A stretch of DNA of 44,457 bases from positions 1-44,457 of the forward strand of contig QHYH01000145.1 in assembly GCA_003223215.1 (NCBI GenBank), in the 5' to 3' direction. The translations under genes and the position numbers were made by a program. Positions 7,452 to 24,574 of this stretch are shown here, piece after piece (position 1 is the stretch's first letter; each line of letters starts with the position of its first letter). Under the pieces are notes generated by a model that was not told the origin of the DNA, ran no database searches, and saw only the letters and a program-made list of their open reading frames with translations. This stretch comes from Acidobacteriota bacterium (GTDB taxonomy: Bacteria; Acidobacteriota; Terriglobia; Acidiferrales; UBA7541).

Positions 7452-8684
7452 TCACACTTGATTCCTTTGCATGGACGTGGAAAGCGCAGCTGAGCGGGCT
7501 TCTTGAAATGCACTTCCGCGGATCGCCGTGTCGTAGATTCGCATGAGCGTGTCGTAGTTAAGTTCGGCGGTGTATTTGCTTAAGTATTGTGCTCGCGCGG
7601 CTCTGCCCACCATTTCCATTTCCTGCGGATAGGTCCAAGCCCATTCCGTTTTGGCCGCCAGATCATCAGGGTTGCCGGTTTCGAAGAGCAGCCCGGTCTT
7701 TCGATCTTCCACCAATTCCGGCATCGCACCGGAACAGGAGGCAATCACGGGCAATCCGCAAGCAAAGGCCTCGATGGCAACAAGTCCGAAGGTCTCCAGA
7801 TATCCTTCCGATGGCCAAATCAAAAAGCGCGCGCCTTTCATCAACTCGAGACATTTTTGTTGAGGCAAATGCGAAAACACTGTCACCGAGGGATTCTCTC
7901 TCTGAAACTCGCGGACCTCGTTTTGGAGTGGGCCGTCCCCTGCTATCGTCAAAGGAATGTGTTTTAGCCTTTGCCAGGCCTTCAGTAGAGTCCTTATGCC
8001 CTTCTCGGGAACCAGCCGGCCCAGAAAGAGCGCATAGTCGCCGGGTTCTCGCCTGATTCCGGGATCGTCGTTCAAGAAATGGGGCTTCAGGAAGATCTTT
8101 TTCGCCGGTAAACCTGCGGCGATGAATTTCTGGCATGAGAATTGAGTAAAAGCAATGTAGGCGTCTACCTGTTCGTGCCAGGTTTCTAGAAGTCGATGGA
8201 CGCTAATCATTCCGGCCACAACAGCCGTTTGAGGGCGGGAATTGTGATAGCAGCCGTGCACCACTGCTGGCCACGGGATACTTCGCCCCAGACAGTCCTC
8301 GCATACCTTGCCCTCCCGATAATGCGTTGTCGCAGGACAAACGAGGCGGTGGTTATGCAACGATTGCACCACAGCCGCTCCCTCTTCTTTGCACGTGTAG
8401 TAGGCGGCGGGGGAAATCAGGGGAAACGTATTGTGGAAGTGAACCAGCTGGGGCCTCTCTTTTCGCAAGATCGAACGCAACTCCCGCGCAGTATCCCAGG
8501 CCCAAAGCGTCCGAATCCCTGTTTTCATGTTCTTCAAGATGCCGTCGTTCGGCATTTCCATATTCTGCCGAACGTATTCCACAACCTCGTGGCCGGCCGA
8601 GCGAAGCAGCGCTCCCTCGCGGGAGAAGACGACATCTTCGCCGCCAGGAGAGCGGTAGCGGTTGTGGGCAATGAGCAGCTTCAT
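7452..8684 (-). CDS. Family 4 glycosyltransferase (GT-B fold)
   Basis: Second GT4 enzyme of the cluster, 410 residues. It starts MKLLIAHNRYRSPGGEDVVF, a common opening in this group. The middle has a cysteine-containing segment (HNHRLVCPATTHYREGKVCE, then DCLG), often seen in GT4 enzymes of capsule and EPS loci. The donor domain begins DYALFLGRLVPEKGIRTLLK, followed by PLTIAGDGPL and the motif GYLETFGLVAIEAFACGLPV. The start overlaps the stop of the Wzy-like gene by 4 bp, so it is translationally coupled to it. A 59-bp gap separates it from the following FkbM gene. Confidence 0.9.
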   Translation of the reverse strand: MKLLIAHNRYRSPGGEDVVFSREGALLRSAGHEVVEYVRQNMEMPNDGILKNMKTGIRTLWAWDTARELRSILRKERPQLVHFHNTFPLISPAAYYTCKEEGAAVVQSLHNHRLVCPATTHYREGKVCEDCLGRSIPWPAVVHGCYHNSRPQTAVVAGMISVHRLLETWHEQVDAYIAFTQFSCQKFIAAGLPAKKIFLKPHFLNDDPGIRREPGDYALFLGRLVPEKGIRTLLKAWQRLKHIPLTIAGDGPLQNEVREFQRENPSVTVFSHLPQQKCLELMKGARFLIWPSEGYLETFGLVAIEAFACGLPVIASCSGAMPELVEDRKTGLLFETGNPDDLAAKTEWAWTYPQEMEMVGRAARAQYLSKYTAELNYDTLMRIYDTAIRGSAFQEARSAALSTSMQRNQV

Positions 8685-16106: not shown

Positions 16107-16155
16107 ATGGTGGGCACTGTCCGATTCGAACGGGCGACCTTTCGGGTGTAAACCG
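16107..16155 (-). repeat. 3' fragment of tRNA-Val (att-like direct repeat, left copy)
   Basis: A 49-bp match, with one mismatch at 16134, to the 3' part of the intact tRNA-Val gene (22975-23023): CCA end, acceptor 3' strand, T arm and anticodon loop TTTACAC. The 5' half of the tRNA is absent. The mismatch disrupts a T-stem pair, as expected for a copy no longer under selection. Position and direct orientation match the displaced tRNA end left when an element integrates into a tRNA 3' end. Confidence 0.85.
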
Positions 16156-16579
16156 TAAGACAAGCCTTTCTAAGTCCTGGCTTTGGCGTCACTTACGGAA
16201 TTCACAGGCACGCTGGAATTGGCCAACTGGCCATCCGAGTCACTCTTCCAGAAGCCGCCCGCGTCGGAGGCGGCTGCCGTTGGCCGCCAGCACTTCGCGC
16301 ACGGTGTCTTGAAATTCGCGTCCGGCCGAGACGGCCGAGACGCGCCGCTTGACCTCCACGTGCCGCTCCTGCGCGGCGGTTGTAAGGGCCTGAAACTCCA
16401 TCGTTGGGCTGTTGATTCTAAATGGCTTGAAATCGAGTTTCTGGAGAGACCGGTGACGTTTTTGAGTCAACTAGAGTGGGGCACCCGAAGCGAGCGGATC
16501 AAAGGGGCTGGAGCCGTGTGACAAGTCTTTTTCTGCTCCGCGCGTGCAGTCCTGCATGCAGGTCCCGTGCAAATAGTGG

Positions 16580-16608
16580 TTGACAAGCAATATCCACCAC
16601 CTTAAAAA
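16580..16608 (+). promoter_or_regulatory. Sigma-70-like promoter for the GH28 gene
   Basis: TTGACA at 16580-16585, a 17-base spacer, then TAAAAA at 16603-16608. It points toward the GH28 gene, whose start is about 160 bp downstream, leaving a long 5' leader. Confidence 0.4.
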
Positions 16609-16768
16609 CCTCCCGTGGTCTGTAAATATTGGTTTGCAGCTTGTCAGACAACGGCCATTTAAAGAAGCCTGCGCGCAACACTTCTTTAGTTCTTGCGATC
16701 ATGTGCTCAGCGGGACAAAACCTTAATGACCATGAACCGTCAGGCTGCTTGAGCTTGCGGAGATGAAT

Positions 16769-18394
16769 ATGCCAAAACGACTGCTGAGGAGAATTGTACC
16801 GCTGGGTGTCACCCTATTCATGTCAGTCGGTGCTGTGGTTTCGCAGGCAAAGGCCGACATTTTTAACGTCAAGGATTACGGAGCAACGGGGAAGAAGGCG
16901 GACAACGCCAGGACCGCCATTCAAAAGGCCATCGACGCCTGCGCCAAAGCTGGCGGCGGCATCGTCTACCTGCCTCCTGGCGACTACACCAGCGGCACGA
17001 TTCACCTCCGCAGTCACGTCAGGTTCTGGATCGAGGCCGGAGCCACGTTGTTCAGCGCAGAGGAGGACGCAGCGTTCGACACCGATGGGCTGCTTTTCGG
17101 CGAAGACCTCATCAACATCAGCATTGAAGGCCGTGGAACCATTAACGGCCAGTCGGAATACGACTGGCGCATGAATATTATCGATGACGGGTACATCCGC
17201 GACAATCAGAAATCGGCTGAGGCGGCCGGAGTGCCGTTGATGCGATCCTTTCCTAAGGGAATGGGCCAGCGGAAAATCTACCCGCATATGATTAAGTTGC
17301 TACGCTGCACAGACGTGCTGATTGAAGGCGTTTCGATCATCGATTCCCCAAGTTGGACGATTTATCCCTATGCCTGCGAGCGGCTTCGTATTGACGGCAT
17401 CTACATCAGAACGGACCAGAAGCTGGGCGTGTGGGCCGACGGCATTGACCCGGACGGCTGCAAGGACGTAGTGATCGCGAACAGCGTTATTGAAACCGGT
17501 GACGACGCCATCGTGTTTTACTCCTCCGGGGCGTCAGGCTTTCCTCCGAAGGCGAGTGAGAACATCACCATCACGAATTGTCGCCTTTCATCTTCATCCA
17601 GCGCGATCAAGTTCTGCGACGGCAATTCCGTTGCGGTTCGCAACGTCACTATCAATAACGTCGTGATCACGCATTCGAATCGTGGGCTCGCCTTCATGGT
17701 GTACGACGGCGGCGTTGTGGAAAACGTCGTGATCTCGAACGTGGTGATCAACATCGACCGTTTTGACTGGTTCTGGTGGGGCAACGGTGATCCCATCTAC
17801 TTCACCGTTCAACGCCGGAGCGAAAGCCTCGGCCTTCCTGTGAAGCCGGACGAGCCGCCGGCCGGAGCAATCCGAAACGTCATCGTCCGCAACGTCATTG
17901 CGCATGGCAAAGGAGCGTGCCTGATCAACGGCCATCCCGATAGCTGGCTGGACCACGTGAGCCTCGAAAATATCAAACTCTATCTCTCAACCGATCCTTC
18001 CGCCGCTTATGACCGATCAGTGAACGCAATGCAGGTTCATTACGGTAAAAACTTGACCCTCAGGGATGTTGAGGTCATCTGGGACAAGCCTGAGCTGAAC
18101 AAATGGGGAAGTGCGCTCTACTTTGAGGATGTTCAGGGATTGAAGGTGATTGGCTTTTCCGGCAGGCCGGCGAAGCCGAATGCGGACACTCCCGCCATTG
18201 TATTGAACAAGGTTGAGGGCGCGACCATCTCCAACTCAACAGCTCAACAGGGCACACGCGTGTTTCTTGGCGTGACCGGAACCAATACGCGGGATATCCT
18301 TCTGGAGGGAAATGAATTGCACAATGCCCAACTGCCGTATCAGCTCTTCGGCGGAACCAAAGAGGGTATTGTGAAGGCAATTAACAATTTTTGA
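16769..18394 (+). CDS. Glycoside hydrolase family 28-like (pectinase-type beta-helix) protein
   Basis: Secreted right-handed beta-helix enzyme of 541 residues, probably acting on pectin-type polysaccharide or galacturonides. I choose the ATG at 16769 (GGAG six bases upstream) over the ATG at 16763, which abuts the SD. The signal peptide is PKRLLRRIVPLGVTLFMSVG with cleavage after about QAKA. The N-terminal pectate-lyase-superfamily motif is FNVKDYGATGKKADNARTAI. Catalytic-region motifs: WADGIDPDGC near residue 225 and ETGDDAIVF near 244, matching GH28 motifs I and II. The usual GHG is replaced by SSSAIKF, as in some bacterial subgroups, so exact activity is unclear. It sits in the tRNA-Val-bracketed segment with an alpha-glucuronidase-like gene. 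Confidence 0.85.
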   Translation: MPKRLLRRIVPLGVTLFMSVGAVVSQAKADIFNVKDYGATGKKADNARTAIQKAIDACAKAGGGIVYLPPGDYTSGTIHLRSHVRFWIEAGATLFSAEEDAAFDTDGLLFGEDLINISIEGRGTINGQSEYDWRMNIIDDGYIRDNQKSAEAAGVPLMRSFPKGMGQRKIYPHMIKLLRCTDVLIEGVSIIDSPSWTIYPYACERLRIDGIYIRTDQKLGVWADGIDPDGCKDVVIANSVIETGDDAIVFYSSGASGFPPKASENITITNCRLSSSSSAIKFCDGNSVAVRNVTINNVVITHSNRGLAFMVYDGGVVENVVISNVVINIDRFDWFWWGNGDPIYFTVQRRSESLGLPVKPDEPPAGAIRNVIVRNVIAHGKGACLINGHPDSWLDHVSLENIKLYLSTDPSAAYDRSVNAMQVHYGKNLTLRDVEVIWDKPELNKWGSALYFEDVQGLKVIGFSGRPAKPNADTPAIVLNKVEGATISNSTAQQGTRVFLGVTGTNTRDILLEGNELHNAQLPYQLFGGTKEGIVKAINNF

Positions 18395-18438
18395 CTTCGG
18401 TTGTGTTGTTCCGAATGGGCTTTGCTCGGAGCTAACGC

Positions 18439-19724
18439 ATGACTAATCGACGAGGATTCCTATATAGCGTGTTCGCTTCCGCGCTCGGCGGAGCGATGTC
18501 GACTAGGGCCGCGCCCGCGCCCACTCCCAGAGGCCTTCCTCCTTTCCCCGACGATAACGACCCTGAATTCTGGGATCGGATTCGAGATCAATTCTATATT
18601 CCGGGCGGCGAAGCCTTTTTCAATACTGGAACGATTGGCTCCGTACCACGACCGGTTCTGGAGAGGGTGATCGAAGACATGCGCACCCCTGGAAGCAACC
18701 GTGACGCGTTGGGATTATTCCGAAAACACGCCCAATTGGATCAGCGGCTACTCCCCGGAATTGCCCTTGCGGGACAAGCTGGGGAAGCTGGTAAACGTGG
18801 AAGGGAAAGACATCGCGCTGACACAGAATGCCACCTTCGGCTCAAATTTCGTGGCGAACGGGCTAAGCCTGAAATGAGGGGATGAAGTTATTCTTACAGA
18901 CCGCGAACATCCGGGAGCCATCTGCGCGTGGCAGGAACGGGCCAAAAAGACAGGATTGTGCTGAAGCAGGTGCTAATTCCTACTCCCGCAAATGATCCGG
19001 ATCAATTGGTAGAGTTGTTTGCTGGGACCATCACTTCGCGGACGCGCGTGCTGGCATTTCCCCATATTATTTCATCCACCGCAGTGGTCCTTCCGGCAAG
19101 ACGCCTGACGGAGCTCGCACACCAGCACGGCTGCCTCGCCCTTGTTGACGGAGCACAGGCTCTCGGACAGATTCCAGTGGGCTTGCAAGACATTGGTTGC
19201 GACGCTTATTTTGCGAGCCCGCACAAATGGCTCCTGGCGCCTCCGGGAAATGGCATGTTTTATATCCGGCGCGATCAGAGGGAGAAGTTCTGGACGACGC
19301 TGTGCAGTTTCGCATGGGACGACCAGACGGATGGAATGTACCGCTTCATGCAGTATGGCACGGGCAATCGCTCTCTCTTGACAGGCCTCGATGCCGCTCT
19401 GGACTTTCACTTCCGGATAGGCCCTGGCCGGATTTACAAGCGCATGCGCTTTCTCGCCGACCGTTTGCGAAACGGTCTTCAGCAGATTCCGCGCGCCAGA
19501 ATTGGCTCGCCCGTTCATCCGGAGCTCGCCGGCGCGACAGTGTGCCATAGGGTTGAAGGATTGCCGGCGGCAAAACTTGAATCGGAACTGTGGGCTAAGA
19601 AATGGATCAGGGTCCGCTCACAGGGAGATCAGGTTGGCGTGCGGCAGTCATGCCAGGTTTACAACAGCGAAGCGGGAGCGATGCCACGCTTGAAATCGTG
19701 CGCAGCCTTGCCCCACATGCATAA
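18439..19724 (+). pseudogene. Tat-exported class V aminotransferase (isopenicillin-N-epimerase-like), broken
   Basis: PLP enzyme gene with at least four lesions. It starts at the ATG 18439 with a twin-arginine signal (NRRGFLYSVFASALGGAMS). The frame shifts near 18700, after which WISGYSPELPLRDKLGKLV reads in another frame. An in-frame TGA stands at 18875-18877 (between LSLK and GDEVILTDREHPGA). A second shift near 18960 restores the original frame at VLKQVLIPTP. A last shift near 19680 leads to DATLEIVRSLAPHA and the probable original stop at 19722-19724. Fold features survive: ALVDGAQALGQIPV and the PLP-lysine motif YFASPHKWLLAPPGNG. Two open pieces remain (18439-18885 and 18928-19788), but neither encodes a whole enzyme. 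The start is 44 bp after the GH28 stop, so it probably once formed an operon with it. Confidence 0.88.
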
Positions 19725-19773
19725 ACCTTCGCTGCGTCGACCCTTGCTCGCGACATGCCCTGATCACTTACAC

Positions 19774-19800
19774 AGCACCCCGTTCTGAGGGGCGGGTGCT
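19774..19800. other. Inverted repeat between convergent genes
   Basis: AGCACCC and GGGTGCT form 7-bp arms in the gap between the aminotransferase pseudogene and the convergent glycosidase gene. It might end transcription, but no T-run follows on either strand. Confidence 0.3.
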
Positions 19801-19995
19801 GGGTGATGATTGGAAGATGAAAGCGACGCCCGAAGCCGGGAGCTGGGCCGGAATGCCTTCTTCACTTCTTCGTTTGGTTCTCTCAGGAAAGTTCCTGCAG
19901 TTCATATAGTGACGCGAATTTCCATCGGGACCTTGGGGGTCGGAAATTGACCCGAGCATATCATTCCCAACAAATGTCGCACCTTTTCATCGCCA

Positions 19996-22488
19996 TCAGG
20001 AGGCGCTAAGGTCCGGCGGAAAGAGCCGCTCCCACGGAACGTGCCGCAAATAGGGTTTACCGGAGTGGTAATTTACGATGTTTTGCGCCGCCTGGCAGAC
20101 CAAATCGAATCCGAGTATTGCGCGCGCATTCAAATGGTATAGAACCCCGAGATCGGACGGGTGATCCATGAACTCAGCGTACTTTCGTGTGGCCGCCTGC
20201 ACCTGCCTGCTCGATACTGAGAATCCATCCAACGCCTTGTTCAGTTCCGCGACGAATTGCTGATGCGACAGCTTGCTGCGATCCTTGAATGCCTTATCCA
20301 ATATCAAATAAGCCTTTCGCATCGTCACCAGCGCGGCGATGTAGTCGCGGTAAGATTCTGTCCGGTTGATCGTGTAGCGAAGTTCGTAGTCGCCGTGCGG
20401 GGCAACATCCGGCAAAGCCGCGCGCATTTCTTCCAGCGCTTTATTCAAGTAGCCGATCGAGCCCTGGAATCGAACAATCGTGTCAGGCAGTTCCGTGATG
20501 AATCCCTTCCAATCGGAAATCGTGGGTCCATCAAAGGCATCGGGTTGGGTGAAGAACCGGTGTCCCATGTGAACCTCCGGCAAGGATGTGCAACAATTCA
20601 TCATCGTGTACAAGTACCAGTAGCTGTTGTAGGCAACGTATTCCTGATTGTCTTCGAGCGCCATGAAGGCGCGGTACATTGCGGGTGCCGCCTTATCGCC
20701 AAACAGCCGGCTCGAATAGTCTTTGTAAAAGTCCTCGGGCCCCAATTGCGGAGCCCATCCGGCCTTGGCGAGGAAGGAGCTGTTGGTCTCTGTCCCGCGA
20801 ACCCGATCGATCTGTCCGGCGAAGCCCGATAATCCGTATTTCAGGCCATCGGTGAAAATTTTGTCGTTGACGCTATATTGCCGCACGCTGAACTGCATTC
20901 CCATCATTTCAAAGTCATCGTCCACGCGCGGCTCAATCGTTCTTTCACGCTCTCCCATGGCGCTGAATATCTGCATGGGAAGGCCCGCCGGAGTCCACAC
21001 CCCGCTGGATTCCATATCAGTAAAGGGAACGTCTTTCGGCAACAGTTTGTTGAATAACGGCAGCGCATACCCGCGTCCAACGCCCATGAGCCCGATTTTT
21101 GCATGGGGCGTCATCGCGTCCCGCTGTTTCAGCAGGTACTGGAAGAGATCCAAGTAGCCGATATTCGAATCCACTACCAAATCGGAATCCTGAGGAATGT
21201 CGATGATCCAGGGAACTCGCGCTTTCCGCAGCTCAAAAAACTCAGGACGTTTCTGCTCAAAGAAAGCCCGGTGTTTTTCGTTGTTAAGCTCTGGATACAT
21301 CTCGCCCACGTTCAAAAAATACCCCTCGGCCTCAGGGTAGGTGTCGATGAGCGCTTTCAACCGACTCACTTGAATTTCGCGATTGGTTTGGTCCAGAGGA
21401 TGGACGAACGATCCCGCCAGATTCATGAAGGGCAGACTCCCGATTTCTTCGCAGTATCGCGCCAGGTTTGGTGGCAATGCATCCAGTTCCACGGCCAGCC
21501 ACACCTTGATTCCGCGCTGGTTGGCGTGCCGGATGATTTTGTGCAACAGGTCCTCCGCGACCTGAAAAGCCTGGTCAGAGGTTTCGACATTTTGCATTTC
21601 CGGCGGCGCAAGTCTGCGAAATTTAAAGCGTTCTTTGCCAATCGAAACATCGTCGGTGGTTCGAGAGCCAAATCCACCGTAAGCCCACGTCATGAACCCG
21701 CTCTCCTTCGCGGAAACGTCGCCGAGCATCGCAGTCTCGCCCTTGTAACTGTATTTCAACCACGGTTCGTAAGAGAACCACCAGAACTGCATGTAATTGC
21801 ACTTCATCTTCGCCATTTGGTCGATCAACTTGGCGTAGTCGTCGTAGGAGAACATCGTGGCATTCTCGTAGCCTCCAGCCTGGACAAGAAACCCTCGTCT
21901 GGGCATTGCTGGTTCCATGCGCACATCGAGGAACGGAATCACCAGATGAGTGCGTGGTTCCGGGATAATGTCGCCCGTCAGACGAAACGTGACCCCAAGC
22001 CGTTCGATGAATTCATAGACGCCATAGAGCGTGGACAGGCCGTCGTTCCCGGCGATGACCACGATGGCTCGATTCCTCACCCGGCCGGATTTGATCAGAA
22101 ATCCCTCAGGCTTCAGGCTAGCGAAATTCAGTTGCAGAGCTGATGCTGTTTCCTTTGCGGTTTTGTTTACTACCGTGCCGCCCACGATCAGCATGGATTC
22201 CTGCGTGGTTGCGACTTCACCGTCCGAAACGATCTTTACCGTTGCGCCGGAGAGGATCTTCAAATATTTGGCGAGTTCGGCAGCCGCAAACTGATAAGTC
22301 TCGTTGGACCGCTCACCGAGGACAATTGAGACTTGAGCCTGCCCGGCCGAGGCGATCACTATTTGTCCGGACCTTTGCGCGGCCGCGTGCGCATGCTGAG
22401 CGGCGAGAAAATTGGCAAAGAATTGCGTCCCCGCAAAAACTGTGTGAAGGATCACACGATGAAGACTGAAAACGGCGGCATGACACAT
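19996..22488 (-). CDS. Alpha-glucuronidase-like glycoside hydrolase (GH67 N-terminal-type domain), secreted
   Basis: Large 830-residue secreted protein. The ATG at 22488 has AAGGA eight bases upstream; the hydrophobic leader ends near AQHAHAAAQ. An N-terminal GH67-type beta domain (NETYQFAAAELAKYLKILSG, then VVIAGNDGLSTLYGVYEFIE and RLGVTFRLTGD) precedes a TIM-barrel-like part (MKCNYMQFWWFSYEPWLKYS, GIKVWLAVELDALPPNLARY, EAEGYFLNVGEMYPEL) and a helical C-terminus. The GEMYPEL acid may be catalytic, but I cannot assign it. Such proteins are annotated as alpha-glucuronidase family; the real substrate could be another uronic-acid-bearing glycan. It is transcribed toward the pectinase/aminotransferase pair. 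Confidence 0.75.
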   Translation of the reverse strand: MCHAAVFSLHRVILHTVFAGTQFFANFLAAQHAHAAAQRSGQIVIASAGQAQVSIVLGERSNETYQFAAAELAKYLKILSGATVKIVSDGEVATTQESMLIVGGTVVNKTAKETASALQLNFASLKPEGFLIKSGRVRNRAIVVIAGNDGLSTLYGVYEFIERLGVTFRLTGDIIPEPRTHLVIPFLDVRMEPAMPRRGFLVQAGGYENATMFSYDDYAKLIDQMAKMKCNYMQFWWFSYEPWLKYSYKGETAMLGDVSAKESGFMTWAYGGFGSRTTDDVSIGKERFKFRRLAPPEMQNVETSDQAFQVAEDLLHKIIRHANQRGIKVWLAVELDALPPNLARYCEEIGSLPFMNLAGSFVHPLDQTNREIQVSRLKALIDTYPEAEGYFLNVGEMYPELNNEKHRAFFEQKRPEFFELRKARVPWIIDIPQDSDLVVDSNIGYLDLFQYLLKQRDAMTPHAKIGLMGVGRGYALPLFNKLLPKDVPFTDMESSGVWTPAGLPMQIFSAMGERERTIEPRVDDDFEMMGMQFSVRQYSVNDKIFTDGLKYGLSGFAGQIDRVRGTETNSSFLAKAGWAPQLGPEDFYKDYSSRLFGDKAAPAMYRAFMALEDNQEYVAYNSYWYLYTMMNCCTSLPEVHMGHRFFTQPDAFDGPTISDWKGFITELPDTIVRFQGSIGYLNKALEEMRAALPDVAPHGDYELRYTINRTESYRDYIAALVTMRKAYLILDKAFKDRSKLSHQQFVAELNKALDGFSVSSRQVQAATRKYAEFMDHPSDLGVLYHLNARAILGFDLVCQAAQNIVNYHSGKPYLRHVPWERLFPPDLSAS

Positions 22489-22613
22489 TTTCGAAATCCT
22501 TCAGCCTTGATTGCTCACAGAATGTAGGAAATTCTGGCGGCCCACATATATACCACATCTGGAATCTCCGGGCTTCATCACCTGAGATCATTTTCTTGTT
22601 TCAAAGGGGATTT

Positions 22614-22690
22614 TGGTGGACCAGGGAGGTTCGAACTCCCGGACCATGGTTGCTGCCCGATTAGCACCGCTAACCGGACATCTCTAACAA
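22614..22690 (-). other. Degenerate tRNA-like 3' fragment
   Basis: On the minus strand a perfect T arm (GGGAG TTCGAAC CTCCC) is followed by TGGTCC and ACCA. The acceptor 3' strand resembles that of tRNA-Lys but is one base short, and no matching 5' strand (GGACCA) exists within 90 bp upstream. The middle contains a long inverted repeat (CCGGTTAGC/GCTAATCGG) instead of a normal anticodon arm. I call it a decayed tRNA end, not a functional gene. Confidence 0.5.
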
Positions 22691-22716
22691 TGCCGCGCGT
22701 CAAGTCTTTTTATTGA

Positions 22717-22950
22717 TTGTTCTTTTCTTTTTCCTTCCTCTTTGCACAACTCTCCATTCACCCCTGCGAATGGTCTTGTTCGTTTTTCTTTGACGCTCTG
22801 GGCACGCGCTGCGCGAAGCAACTGATTGAGAACATCGAGTGGTGTAAACAGTGGGCTGAGAAGGTCGGCCTCGGATTCAAGCTGCCGAGCCTTCCACTCG
22901 AAATTGGCCAACCTTCGCAGTCCAAAACTCAGCCCGCGAAAGCGGCATAA
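22717..22950 (+). pseudogene. Possible gene tail next to tRNA-Val (family unknown)
   Basis: A plus-strand frame ends at 22950, 24 bp from the tRNA repeat. Its last ~50 residues look protein-like (FDALGTRCAKQLIENIEWCK, QWAEKVGLGFKLPSLPLEIG) while the upstream part is Phe/Ser-rich translation of a T-rich tract. It could be the C-terminal tail of a lost gene, perhaps an integrase given its place beside an attachment-like site, but I see no integrase motif. Confidence 0.25.
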
Positions 22951-22974
22951 TGGTCAGAAAATACTGAAGATAGC

Positions 22975-23023
22975 ATGGTGGGCACTGTCCGATTCGAACG
23001 GACGACCTTTCGGGTGTAAACCG
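22975..23023 (-). repeat. att-like direct repeat, right copy (inside tRNA-Val)
   Basis: The copy of the 49-bp repeat that forms the 3' part of the intact tRNA-Val, running from one base beyond the CCA end to the anticodon arm. With 16107-16155 it brackets about 6.8 kb. Confidence 0.85.
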
Positions 23024-23051
23024 AACGCTCTAACCGCTGAGCTAAGCGCCC
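22976..23051 (-). tRNA. tRNA-Val (anticodon UAC)
   Basis: Full cloverleaf on the minus strand: acceptor GGGCGCT/AGTGCCC (one G-U pair), D arm GCTC/GAGC, anticodon stem TTCGG/CCGAA with loop TTTACAC (anticodon TAC), T arm GTCCG TTCGAAT CGGAC, discriminator A and an encoded CCA. Length is 73 nt plus CCA. It reads GUA valine codons. A good promoter lies just upstream. Confidence 0.96.
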
Positions 23052-23061
23052 AATGAAATTC

Positions 23062-23090
23062 ATCGTACAGGAAGCATAGGGACGGGTCAA
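23062..23090 (-). promoter_or_regulatory. Promoter of tRNA-Val
   Basis: Minus-strand TTGACC (23090-23085), a 17-base spacer and TACGAT (23067-23062). Transcription would begin a few bases before the tRNA 5' end at 23051. Confidence 0.6.
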
Positions 23091-23231
23091 CGCGCGTGCG
23101 TTCTCTACTTTTTCCCCGAGGCCTTCTTTCCAGCATTTTGTCGAAAATCCCTCAGCCTGCGTTTTCTTGCACTTTGCTCCCGCAGCCAGTAAACTAACTT
23201 GCTCATAATTACCCGAGGAAATTGACTAGAG

Positions 23232-23513
23232 ATGCTGCTCGTACGCGATTTTGTGGCTCACATGGCTAGTGAGGTGGTGAAGCGCCTGGTGGAGGGCGGG
23301 CAAATTGAGGTTAAGGCCCGGGACGCGGTGACCACGCGCATCCGCCAGCGCATGCTCGAGGAGTTGACCGTCGAGGACCGGCTCAACGAGGAAGTGCGGC
23401 AGATCCTCGTCGAGCGCCAGGATGAGATGCGCAGCAACGGCGTGTCTTACCAGGAGATGTACAAAAAGGTGAAGCAACACTTGGCGAGGGACCGAAAGCT
23501 GGTTTTACGGTAA
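23232..23513 (+). CDS. DUF507 family protein (copy 1)
   Basis: Small, highly charged helical protein of 93 residues, function unknown. Features: LVRDFVAHMASEVVKRLVEG, then RIRQRMLEELTVEDRLNEEV and ILVERQDEMRSNGVSYQEMY. The second half matches the DUF507 pattern of an acidic linker, an EVR motif and a lysine-rich end. It lies divergently from tRNA-Val and 142 bp before a second member of the family, so the two probably form one unit. Confidence 0.75.
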   Translation: MLLVRDFVAHMASEVVKRLVEGGQIEVKARDAVTTRIRQRMLEELTVEDRLNEEVRQILVERQDEMRSNGVSYQEMYKKVKQHLARDRKLVLR

Positions 23514-23655
23514 GGAAGGGGAGTCGAAAACCGGTATTGGAAACCCGCGGACAAGTTTCTCTCGAATTTCGAGCTATGAGCGTCGATTTTCCGGTTTCCG
23601 TGGCAATTGGGTTGGCCACAAAGAATGGGTTAGCGGGAAAGGGAACCGTAAGAGC

Positions 23656-23964
23656 ATGATGCGACTGAGCCGTGAAAAAATTGTCAGACTCTCGCACCAA
23701 GTTACCGATGTGCTGGTGTCCAGCGACGAAGTGGAATTCATCGACGACCGCGACACCATTCGTCAGCAAATCGTACAGATCCTGACCGCCATGCTCAAGG
23801 ACGAAGAAAAAATCGAGCTGGAAGTCCGCAAGCGCATTACCTCGCAGAAGAAGGAAATCCTCGAAGGCAGCGAGGAATGGGACGTGCTGCACAAGAAGTA
23901 TTACCAGGACGAATTGCGCCGCCTCGGCATCGCTTCCGCTCCTGACGACCGCCACCGCGCCTGA
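23656..23964 (+). CDS. DUF507 family protein (copy 2)
   Basis: 102-residue DUF507 protein with the canonical pattern: MRLSREKIVRLSHQVTDVLV, DEVEFIDDRDTIRQQIVQIL, EEKIELEVRKRITSQKKEIL, EGSEEWDVLHKKYYQDELRR. The start could be 23656 or the adjacent ATG at 23659. It differs from copy 1 in retaining the full C-terminal W-D-V-L-x-x-K-Y-Y motif. No catalytic residues are evident; the family function is not established. Confidence 0.85.
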   Translation: MMRLSREKIVRLSHQVTDVLVSSDEVEFIDDRDTIRQQIVQILTAMLKDEEKIELEVRKRITSQKKEILEGSEEWDVLHKKYYQDELRRLGIASAPDDRHRA

Positions 23965-24574
23965 AGCCAGTCTTAGTCCCAAGTCTTGCGTGTTCGATGG
24001 CCATGCCTTTTTTGTCCACAGAACCCCGCGCGTGAAGCGCTTGAATTCGAGAATGATTTAGAACGAAACGCGAAGACCCAGGAAGGCCCAGTTCGACTGG
24101 CAATGTCGTTGCCATCCAAAGTAAACCGTCGAGGATATTTTCGCGAACCCTGGCTCCCCGTCAAGTCAGGGATTTTTAGGCATTTCTATGAAGGTCTTGG
24201 TTCGACGCGGGGGCGCCGAGCAGAGCGCCCCGGTCTTCACCTGCGGAGCAATTCAGGTGTTTACCGGATTGAGCCCTGCCCCGGAAGGTGCAAAGTAACC
24301 TCACAAATGCAATGCTGTGGCTAGTTATTGGGGGTGAGTTCCTTTGGAGTTCCACATCCTCGGTCACACCCCGGGAGCCCAAGGAGTTCACCCCTCCCGC
24401 CCCTGCCACGGAACTGCGTAACAGAATGCCTCGGAGATCGGCCTCGATGTCTTTTGCGAGAAGCCAGAGGGTTTCAGACCTACATCTCAGCTGTAGATGG
24501 ACGACAGGAAAGAAGATAAACGGCAAGAAGGCCCGGCCAAGCGCCAGCCGCCTGAACACTTGCTTCGCCGTGCA
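23965..24574. other. 610-bp gap without a recognised gene
   Basis: Open frames are present on both strands (for example minus 24176-24559) but none looks like a protein: low-complexity Arg/Ser/Leu content, no motif and no SD. No hairpin, tRNA or clear promoter was seen. Confidence 0.4.

Follow-up and report, generated by a model that had tools for sequence, protein, structure and literature searches.

A 6.87-kb segment beside a tRNA-Val gene of an Acidobacteriota bacterium is probably a decayed genomic island that integrated into the tRNA, with a GH28 gene, an aminotransferase and a GH67N-like gene as cargo, and that later lost its integrase in an event linked to an IS110-family element. The integration at tRNA-Val is well shown. 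Within the window, the whole stretch of 44,457 nucleotides that was analysed, the segment is bounded by a direct repeat of the tRNA, has empty counterparts in relatives, and ends in an integrase stump on one side and a distal end shared with other loci on the other. Its cargo shows an affinity to f6, another family of the class (Table 1).

Table 1. Features of the tRNA-Val segment, ordered by position in the window.
Feature	Position	Strand	Support
Displaced 3' fragment of tRNA-Val, 48/49 identical, ancestral 3' flank outside	16107..16155	-	
Island distal end, signature TAAGTC.T.GCTTTGGCGTCA	16152..16240	.	15 other loci
GH28 gene (predicted pectinase-type), open, 543 aa	16763..18394	+	PF00295, 56.6 bits (cut-off 22.9)
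Class-V aminotransferase pseudogene, twin-arginine-like start (by eye)	18439..19735	+	PF00266
Putative glycoside hydrolase with GH67 N-terminal domain, open, 830 aa, start uncertain	19996..22488	-	PF03648, 41.7 bits
3' half of tRNA-Ala(TGC), nearer to f6 than to the host genus	22614..22653	-	
Remnant similar to an IS110-family element's downstream end, with an approximate left border	22679..22800	.	six other loci
C-terminal stump of a tyrosine integrase, 50 codons and stop, Cys in place of the presumed catalytic Tyr	22798..22950	+	
Repeat copy within tRNA-Val, attachment-site core from anticodon stem-loop to 3' end	22975..23023	-	
Regenerated intact tRNA-Val, anticodon TAC	22976..23051	-	ARAGORN; RF00005, 69.5 bits

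The original prediction had described a one-mismatch repeat of 49 bp made of the 3' part of tRNA-Val, with the intact gene at one end and a fragment at the other. Both were recovered. The two copies of 49 nt lie 6868 nt apart in the same orientation and agree at 48 positions, which rejects a chance repeat. Integration at the 3' end of a tRNA requires the fragment to be on the 3' side of the tRNA, and this is where it lies, sharing the orientation of the intact gene. A search of the host genome with positions 22000-24000, in which the best 7 of 58 candidates were scored, hit at least three places, namely its own position in the window, an integrase match located on another contig (G000:C128) and the fragment. 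The DNA directly outside the fragment resembles the tRNA 3' flank of G024, a relative with an empty site, and the mismatch of the repeat sits in the fragment, as G018 and G024 agree with the intact tRNA-Val. The fragment is therefore most likely the displaced original 3' end. Composition, proposed earlier as a check of the segment against its flanks, was uninformative as a mark of foreign origin, because the GC content of 1-kb windows in the segment (0.52-0.57) overlaps that of the remainder (0.52-0.63). Elsewhere in the genus, an isolated 46-nt 3' fragment of tRNA-Val is found at L021 (G017:C263, 3184-3229), with the intact gene of that genome on G017:C376.

The window flanks and the cargo were compared with 19 tRNA-Val loci of same-genus relatives. 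The left flank was present at four of them (G018, G024, G043 and G044) and unmatched at the remaining 15, and the cargo had no match at any of the 19. In G018, G024 and G043, the left flank leads to a single tRNA-Val and on to the right flank, with the segment absent. The proposed footprint of an integration into the tRNA 3' end is thus borne out by the orientation of the repeat and by three empty sites. The patterns named beforehand as contradicting it, relatives sharing the whole segment colinearly or a fragment without the segment, both failed to appear among the 19 loci. The distance between the tRNA and the point where the left-flank match ends is 128 bp in G024 and 320 bp in G043, compared to 126 and 323 bp up to the fragment in the window. 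In G018 the distance is 412 bp, compared to 272 bp, and this stretch, approximately 140 bp longer than in the window, counts against the island explanation. If the segment were instead ancestral and lost in the relatives, the tRNA fragment would be an unrelated partial duplication. Sampling is limited to the few loci that retain the left flank, which favors such a scenario, but the empty sites, the family-specific signature at one border, the integrase stump at the other, and the affinity of the cargo to f6 contradict it, and we give it almost no credence.

The tRNA-Val spot takes up DNA in other ways too, as indicated by G044, which is a further point against the island explanation. Here, approximately 7 kb of unrelated genes stand between the shared left flank and tRNA-Val (L082, G044:C217, 2180-9375), representing a different insertion, and a second tRNA-Val sequence was looked for around it and not found. 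The whole segment was also used as a query against 36 genomes of the genus, including its own, with at most the best eight candidates scored per genome. Among these candidates there was no second copy of the segment, and cargo matches consisted of 69% identity over about 620 nt of the GH28 gene in G049 and stretches below 60 nt in G022 and G046.

The original prediction was wrong in stating that the segment has no recognisable integrase. The C-terminal stump of a tyrosine integrase ends 25 bp from tRNA-Val, so that the integrase stands beside the tRNA as a remnant. Copies of its DNA (22799-22951) are found next to tRNA-Asn in both G000:C128 and G018 and next to tRNA-Pro in G014, in each case as the final part of a gene for a tyrosine integrase. 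The integrase protein of G000:C128 matches PF00589, and the stump peptide alone had no match in a Pfam search. Over 53 columns, the stump is 75% identical to the copy in G011, 66% to G014, and 58% to both G018 and G000:C128, and for two remoter integrase copies the alignment is restricted to 28 and 22 columns. The window has GTRCAKQ in place of the GTRYAKQ of the close copies, hence the tyrosine of this motif, which we take to be the catalytic one, has been lost. Nothing upstream of the stump survives, and a complete integrase with the catalytic tyrosine, as an active element would have, is absent from the segment. In a tree of 21 integrases, in which the stump occupies 10% of the columns, it groups with L073 (tRNA-Asn), L058 (tRNA-Asn) and L019 (tRNA-Pro) with a support of 100/100. 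This clade, which also holds the G000:C128 integrase, belongs to the integrases of an island family of the genus.

Two options had been offered for the segment, and the decayed island fits better than the non-autonomous cassette. A cassette might still be moved in trans by the integrases of sister islands, as both attachment sites are present and the host genome has at least seven matches to open family integrases, the one on G000:C128 being in the clade of the stump. Yet a segment with its own integrase stump descends from an element with an integrase, the displaced tRNA-Val fragment has mutated, and the whole-segment search of 36 genomes of the genus, with up to eight candidates scored in each, returned no second copy, all of which makes a mobile cassette very unlikely.

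The distal end ties the segment to other islands of the genus. Its signature, which in the window lies next to the tRNA fragment, was found at 15 other loci in eight genomes, with one letter different in L065 and only in part in L064. By eye, its neighbors are tRNA-Asn 3' sequences at 11 loci, several of them eroded to the anticodon-stem part, and tRNA-Pro 3' fragments at three, with none at L064. These loci were fetched because they match, and are therefore not a census. In G014, G011 and G013, the signature and an integrase tail share one contig, at distances of 3, 7 and 12 kb, and all three tails are truncated. Together, the integrase stump and the distal signature indicate that the segment belongs, as a dead member, to an island family using tRNA anticodon loops. 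The sister islands at tRNA-Asn and tRNA-Pro (G014:C7, G011:C468, G013:C98 and G000:C128) share with it the distal signature, the same-clade integrase tail, or both. They differ in their tRNA targets and in their cargo: the two islands checked that have both ends on a single contig contain AbiE- and HipA-type genes, not polysaccharide genes. A Pfam scan of nine stretches from sister loci revealed AbiEi, AbiEii, HipA, HTH, M78 and SSB between the ends in G011 and G013. These two sister islands, with tRNA-Asn sequence, span L058 (G011:C468, 3446-10451) and L066 (G013:C98, 155-12141). Just inside the distal end of the window, at 16278-16398, are two short stretches that recur elsewhere in the genus, one at G000:C57, G011:C365 and G049:C16, the other at G018:C146, G043:C382 and G043:C111.

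The integrases of this family have matches in 26 of 250 genomes of the class (E <= 1e-30). Read from their flanks, they lie on the 3' side of tRNA-Asn, tRNA-Pro, tRNA-Ala-CGC, tRNA-Arg-CCG and Met-like and Arg-like fragments, and on the 5' side of tRNA-Asn, tRNA-Ala-TGC and tRNA-Arg-TCT; no tRNA was seen in the flanks of L190, L192 and L207, the last of which was left out of the integrase tree. On this tree, five changes of entry side are needed, two of them forced by well-supported branches, and the side shows no stronger clustering than in shuffled data (265 of 500 shuffles were as low). Entry from the 5' side is known from the Islander collection, where the available text gives 5' fragments for 159 of 3919 islands (PMC4383910). 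At L015 (G018:C216, 6447-8045), a tRNA-Asn (7772-7846) has family integrase genes pointing in from both its 5' and 3' ends.

Two of the earlier gene assignments could be confirmed, those of the GH28 gene and the aminotransferase pseudogene. The GH28 gene, a predicted pectinase-type member of its family, matches the NCBIfam polygalacturonase and rhamnogalacturonidase models below their cut-offs. The aminotransferase is split into two broken ORFs, the second matching PF00266 and the first without a family, and three frameshifting single-base indels separate it from the open copy in G164. The third gene, earlier called alpha-glucuronidase-like, encodes a putative glycoside hydrolase. A GH67 alpha-glucuronidase consists of an N-terminal and a catalytic domain. 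In the 830-aa ORF, only the approximately 107 N-terminal residues match GH67N above the cut-off, and the GH67 catalytic domain was not matched in Pfam, which leaves it short of a full GH67 enzyme. Its alpha-galacturonidase match in NCBIfam is weak and far below the cut-off, and GH115 and GH67 chains in the PDB were reached at E-values of 0.02-0.12 only. The main ORFs of the segment carry no relaxase or conjugation genes, their Pfam matches being to GH28, aminotransferase and GH67N only.

It is well supported that f6, which belongs to the same class as the host but is a different family, is the donor family of the cargo and home to its nearest relatives. Among 249 other genomes of the class, 15 have relatives of the GH67N-like gene (E <= 1e-60), eight of them from f6, five from f9, two from f7 and none from the host family. 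The best amino acid identities are 79% (G123), 76% (G164) and 72% (G197), and 83% and 69% for two pieces in G168. GH28 relatives (E <= 1e-80) are present in 22 of the 249, with identities of 83% and 79% in the f6 genomes G168 and G164, compared to 55% in G049 of the host genus and 56% in G255 of the host family. A control gene outside the island, encoding an M48-type peptidase, shows identities of 89% in G018 and G024 and 77% in G049, compared to 51-56% across five genomes of f6. The GH28 and aminotransferase genes of G164 and G168 are colinear, in the order of the window and with 75-78% DNA identity to it, but the stretches examined there contain no tRNA or family integrase, and the GH67N-like gene is on different contigs. 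In none of the genomes examined do the three cargo genes occur in one place or within an island, which counts against their carriage by the element of the stump integrase. Third codon positions account for a share of the differences of 0.71 in the later part of the aminotransferase and 0.66 in GH28, both measured against G164, and of 0.65 in the GH67N-like gene when compared with G123; out-of-frame comparisons with G168 were set aside. The codon-position pattern of the aminotransferase is still coding-like, and its third-position share suggests that it broke late relative to the divergence.

An affinity of this kind could also arise from an assembly artefact, in which f6 DNA of the same sample was joined via tRNA-like sequence. 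The assembly of the window has 279 contigs, which counts against our explanation, and f6-like bacteria occur in the same kinds of sample (soil and bog MAGs). We nevertheless consider an artefact extremely unlikely, as the ends of the segment belong to the own island family of the host genus, and the cargo is only 72-78% identical at the DNA level to the f6 copies found.

Between the cargo and the integrase stump lies half of a second tRNA, which was identified as tRNA-Ala; tRNA-Ser was dismissed, since by eye the piece is unlike the tRNA-Ser genes of the host. Of 150 other genomes of the class, 14 contain a match to it (E <= 0.001), all from f6, and seven of the eight f6 loci examined at this match are tRNA-Ala(TGC), L139 having no tRNA. 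Identity is 36-38 of 43 columns to seven f6 genes and 27 of 34 to six genes of the host genus. The half begins at the anticodon, as do the sites of the island family, and it may be a relic of the attachment site in the donor. Against such a relic, the distal signature does not follow the tRNA-Ala half. Moreover, no match to the family integrase was found in 19 f6 loci (E <= 1e-4), be it beside tRNA-Ala or beside the cargo. A family integrase is located on the 5' side of tRNA-Ala(TGC) in G088 and on the 3' side of tRNA-Arg in G153, both from f6. Matches to the 3' half of the f6 tRNA-Ala elsewhere in the host genus (G017, G016 and G001) could weaken the reading as a donor stamp. At L188 (G000:C156, 2311-3568), a family integrase lies 5' of the host tRNA-Ala(TGC), followed slightly downstream by a degenerate 3' half resembling a tRNA, and 5'-half matches to tRNA-Ala are also present elsewhere in the genus.

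The DNA between the tRNA-Ala half and the stump resembles six other loci. A transposase stands beside three of these copies (PF02371 in L031 and L032, by eye in L072); none was seen when L069 and L081 were read, and L030 was outside the check. The remnant in the window itself has no transposase. The whole-segment match stops at 22800 in three relatives, and the integrase match begins at 22799. A second type of island end was considered for this stretch, and the transposases beside L031, L032 and L072 make an IS110 end the better explanation. Probably, an IS110-family insertion followed by a deletion destroyed the integrase gene.

Such a patchwork leaves room for a history in two steps, in which a family island with other cargo first entered tRNA-Val, and f6-type genes and the tRNA-Ala half then replaced its interior through IS110-linked or homologous recombination. 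The tRNA-Ala half and the IS110 remnant between cargo and stump fit an interior of this kind, as do the short stretches just within the distal end that recur at unrelated loci, and the f6 loci examined have the cargo genes outside any island. However, both island ends are present with the cargo filling the gap, and the stretch from 16,240 to 22,600 showed no second boundary, so we regard replacement of the interior as unlikely, though worth keeping in mind.

For the decayed island, we infer the following order of events, including the joint arrival of vehicle and cargo. A tyrosine integrase, from a family that is common in the host genus and inserts at tRNA anticodon loops, would have catalysed recombination between the chromosomal tRNA-Val(TAC) and an attP containing tRNA-Val sequence from the anticodon loop to the 3' end, regenerating the tRNA and displacing its original 3' end by 6.87 kb. 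The element of the stump integrase would have carried the cargo, bringing in the GH28, class-V aminotransferase and GH67N-like hydrolase genes, which have their closest relatives in a different family of the class. The integrase gene would afterwards have been cut to its tail, probably via the IS110-family insertion and deletion, its tyrosine codon lost and the aminotransferase frameshifted.

This structure agrees with the tDNA islands of Islander as presented in the available text, with an intact tRNA and an oriented 3' fragment, an anticodon-type crossover and a tyrosine integrase beside the tRNA (PMC4383910). It differs in that the integrase is a stump, for which reason the integrase filter described there would reject it, and in the half of a second tRNA inside. 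In Candidatus Solibacter usitatus Ellin6076, IslandPath was used to call candidate islands on the basis of composition, tRNA genes and mobile elements (PMC3174227). This genome is likewise from the Acidobacteria and has numerous integrases of phage type, candidate islands associated with tRNAs, and signs of degeneration; the available part of the report describes no attachment repeats. Among the publications matched on acidobacterial islands, on polysaccharide genes carried by integrase elements, on CAZymes with mobile elements and on tRNA integration, none was seen to name the island family of the genus, which is not proof that it is unpublished.

With the window island, a transfer of plant-cell-wall genes from one family of soil Acidobacteria to another can be tied to a physical vehicle whose ends are mapped, and the path of its decay becomes visible. 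The end signature and the integrase clade provide a handle on sister islands, including broken ones that integrase filters discard. Tentatively, the segment could be read as a travel record: a family of anticodon-loop integrases may move among families of soil Acidobacteria, switching their tRNA target (Asn, Pro, Val, Ala, Arg) and entry side, with the tRNA-Ala half of the donor family retained from where the pectin genes joined, before the landing at tRNA-Val. If the tRNA-Ala half is indeed a donor stamp, foreign tRNA halves within islands could reveal the past hosts of these islands.
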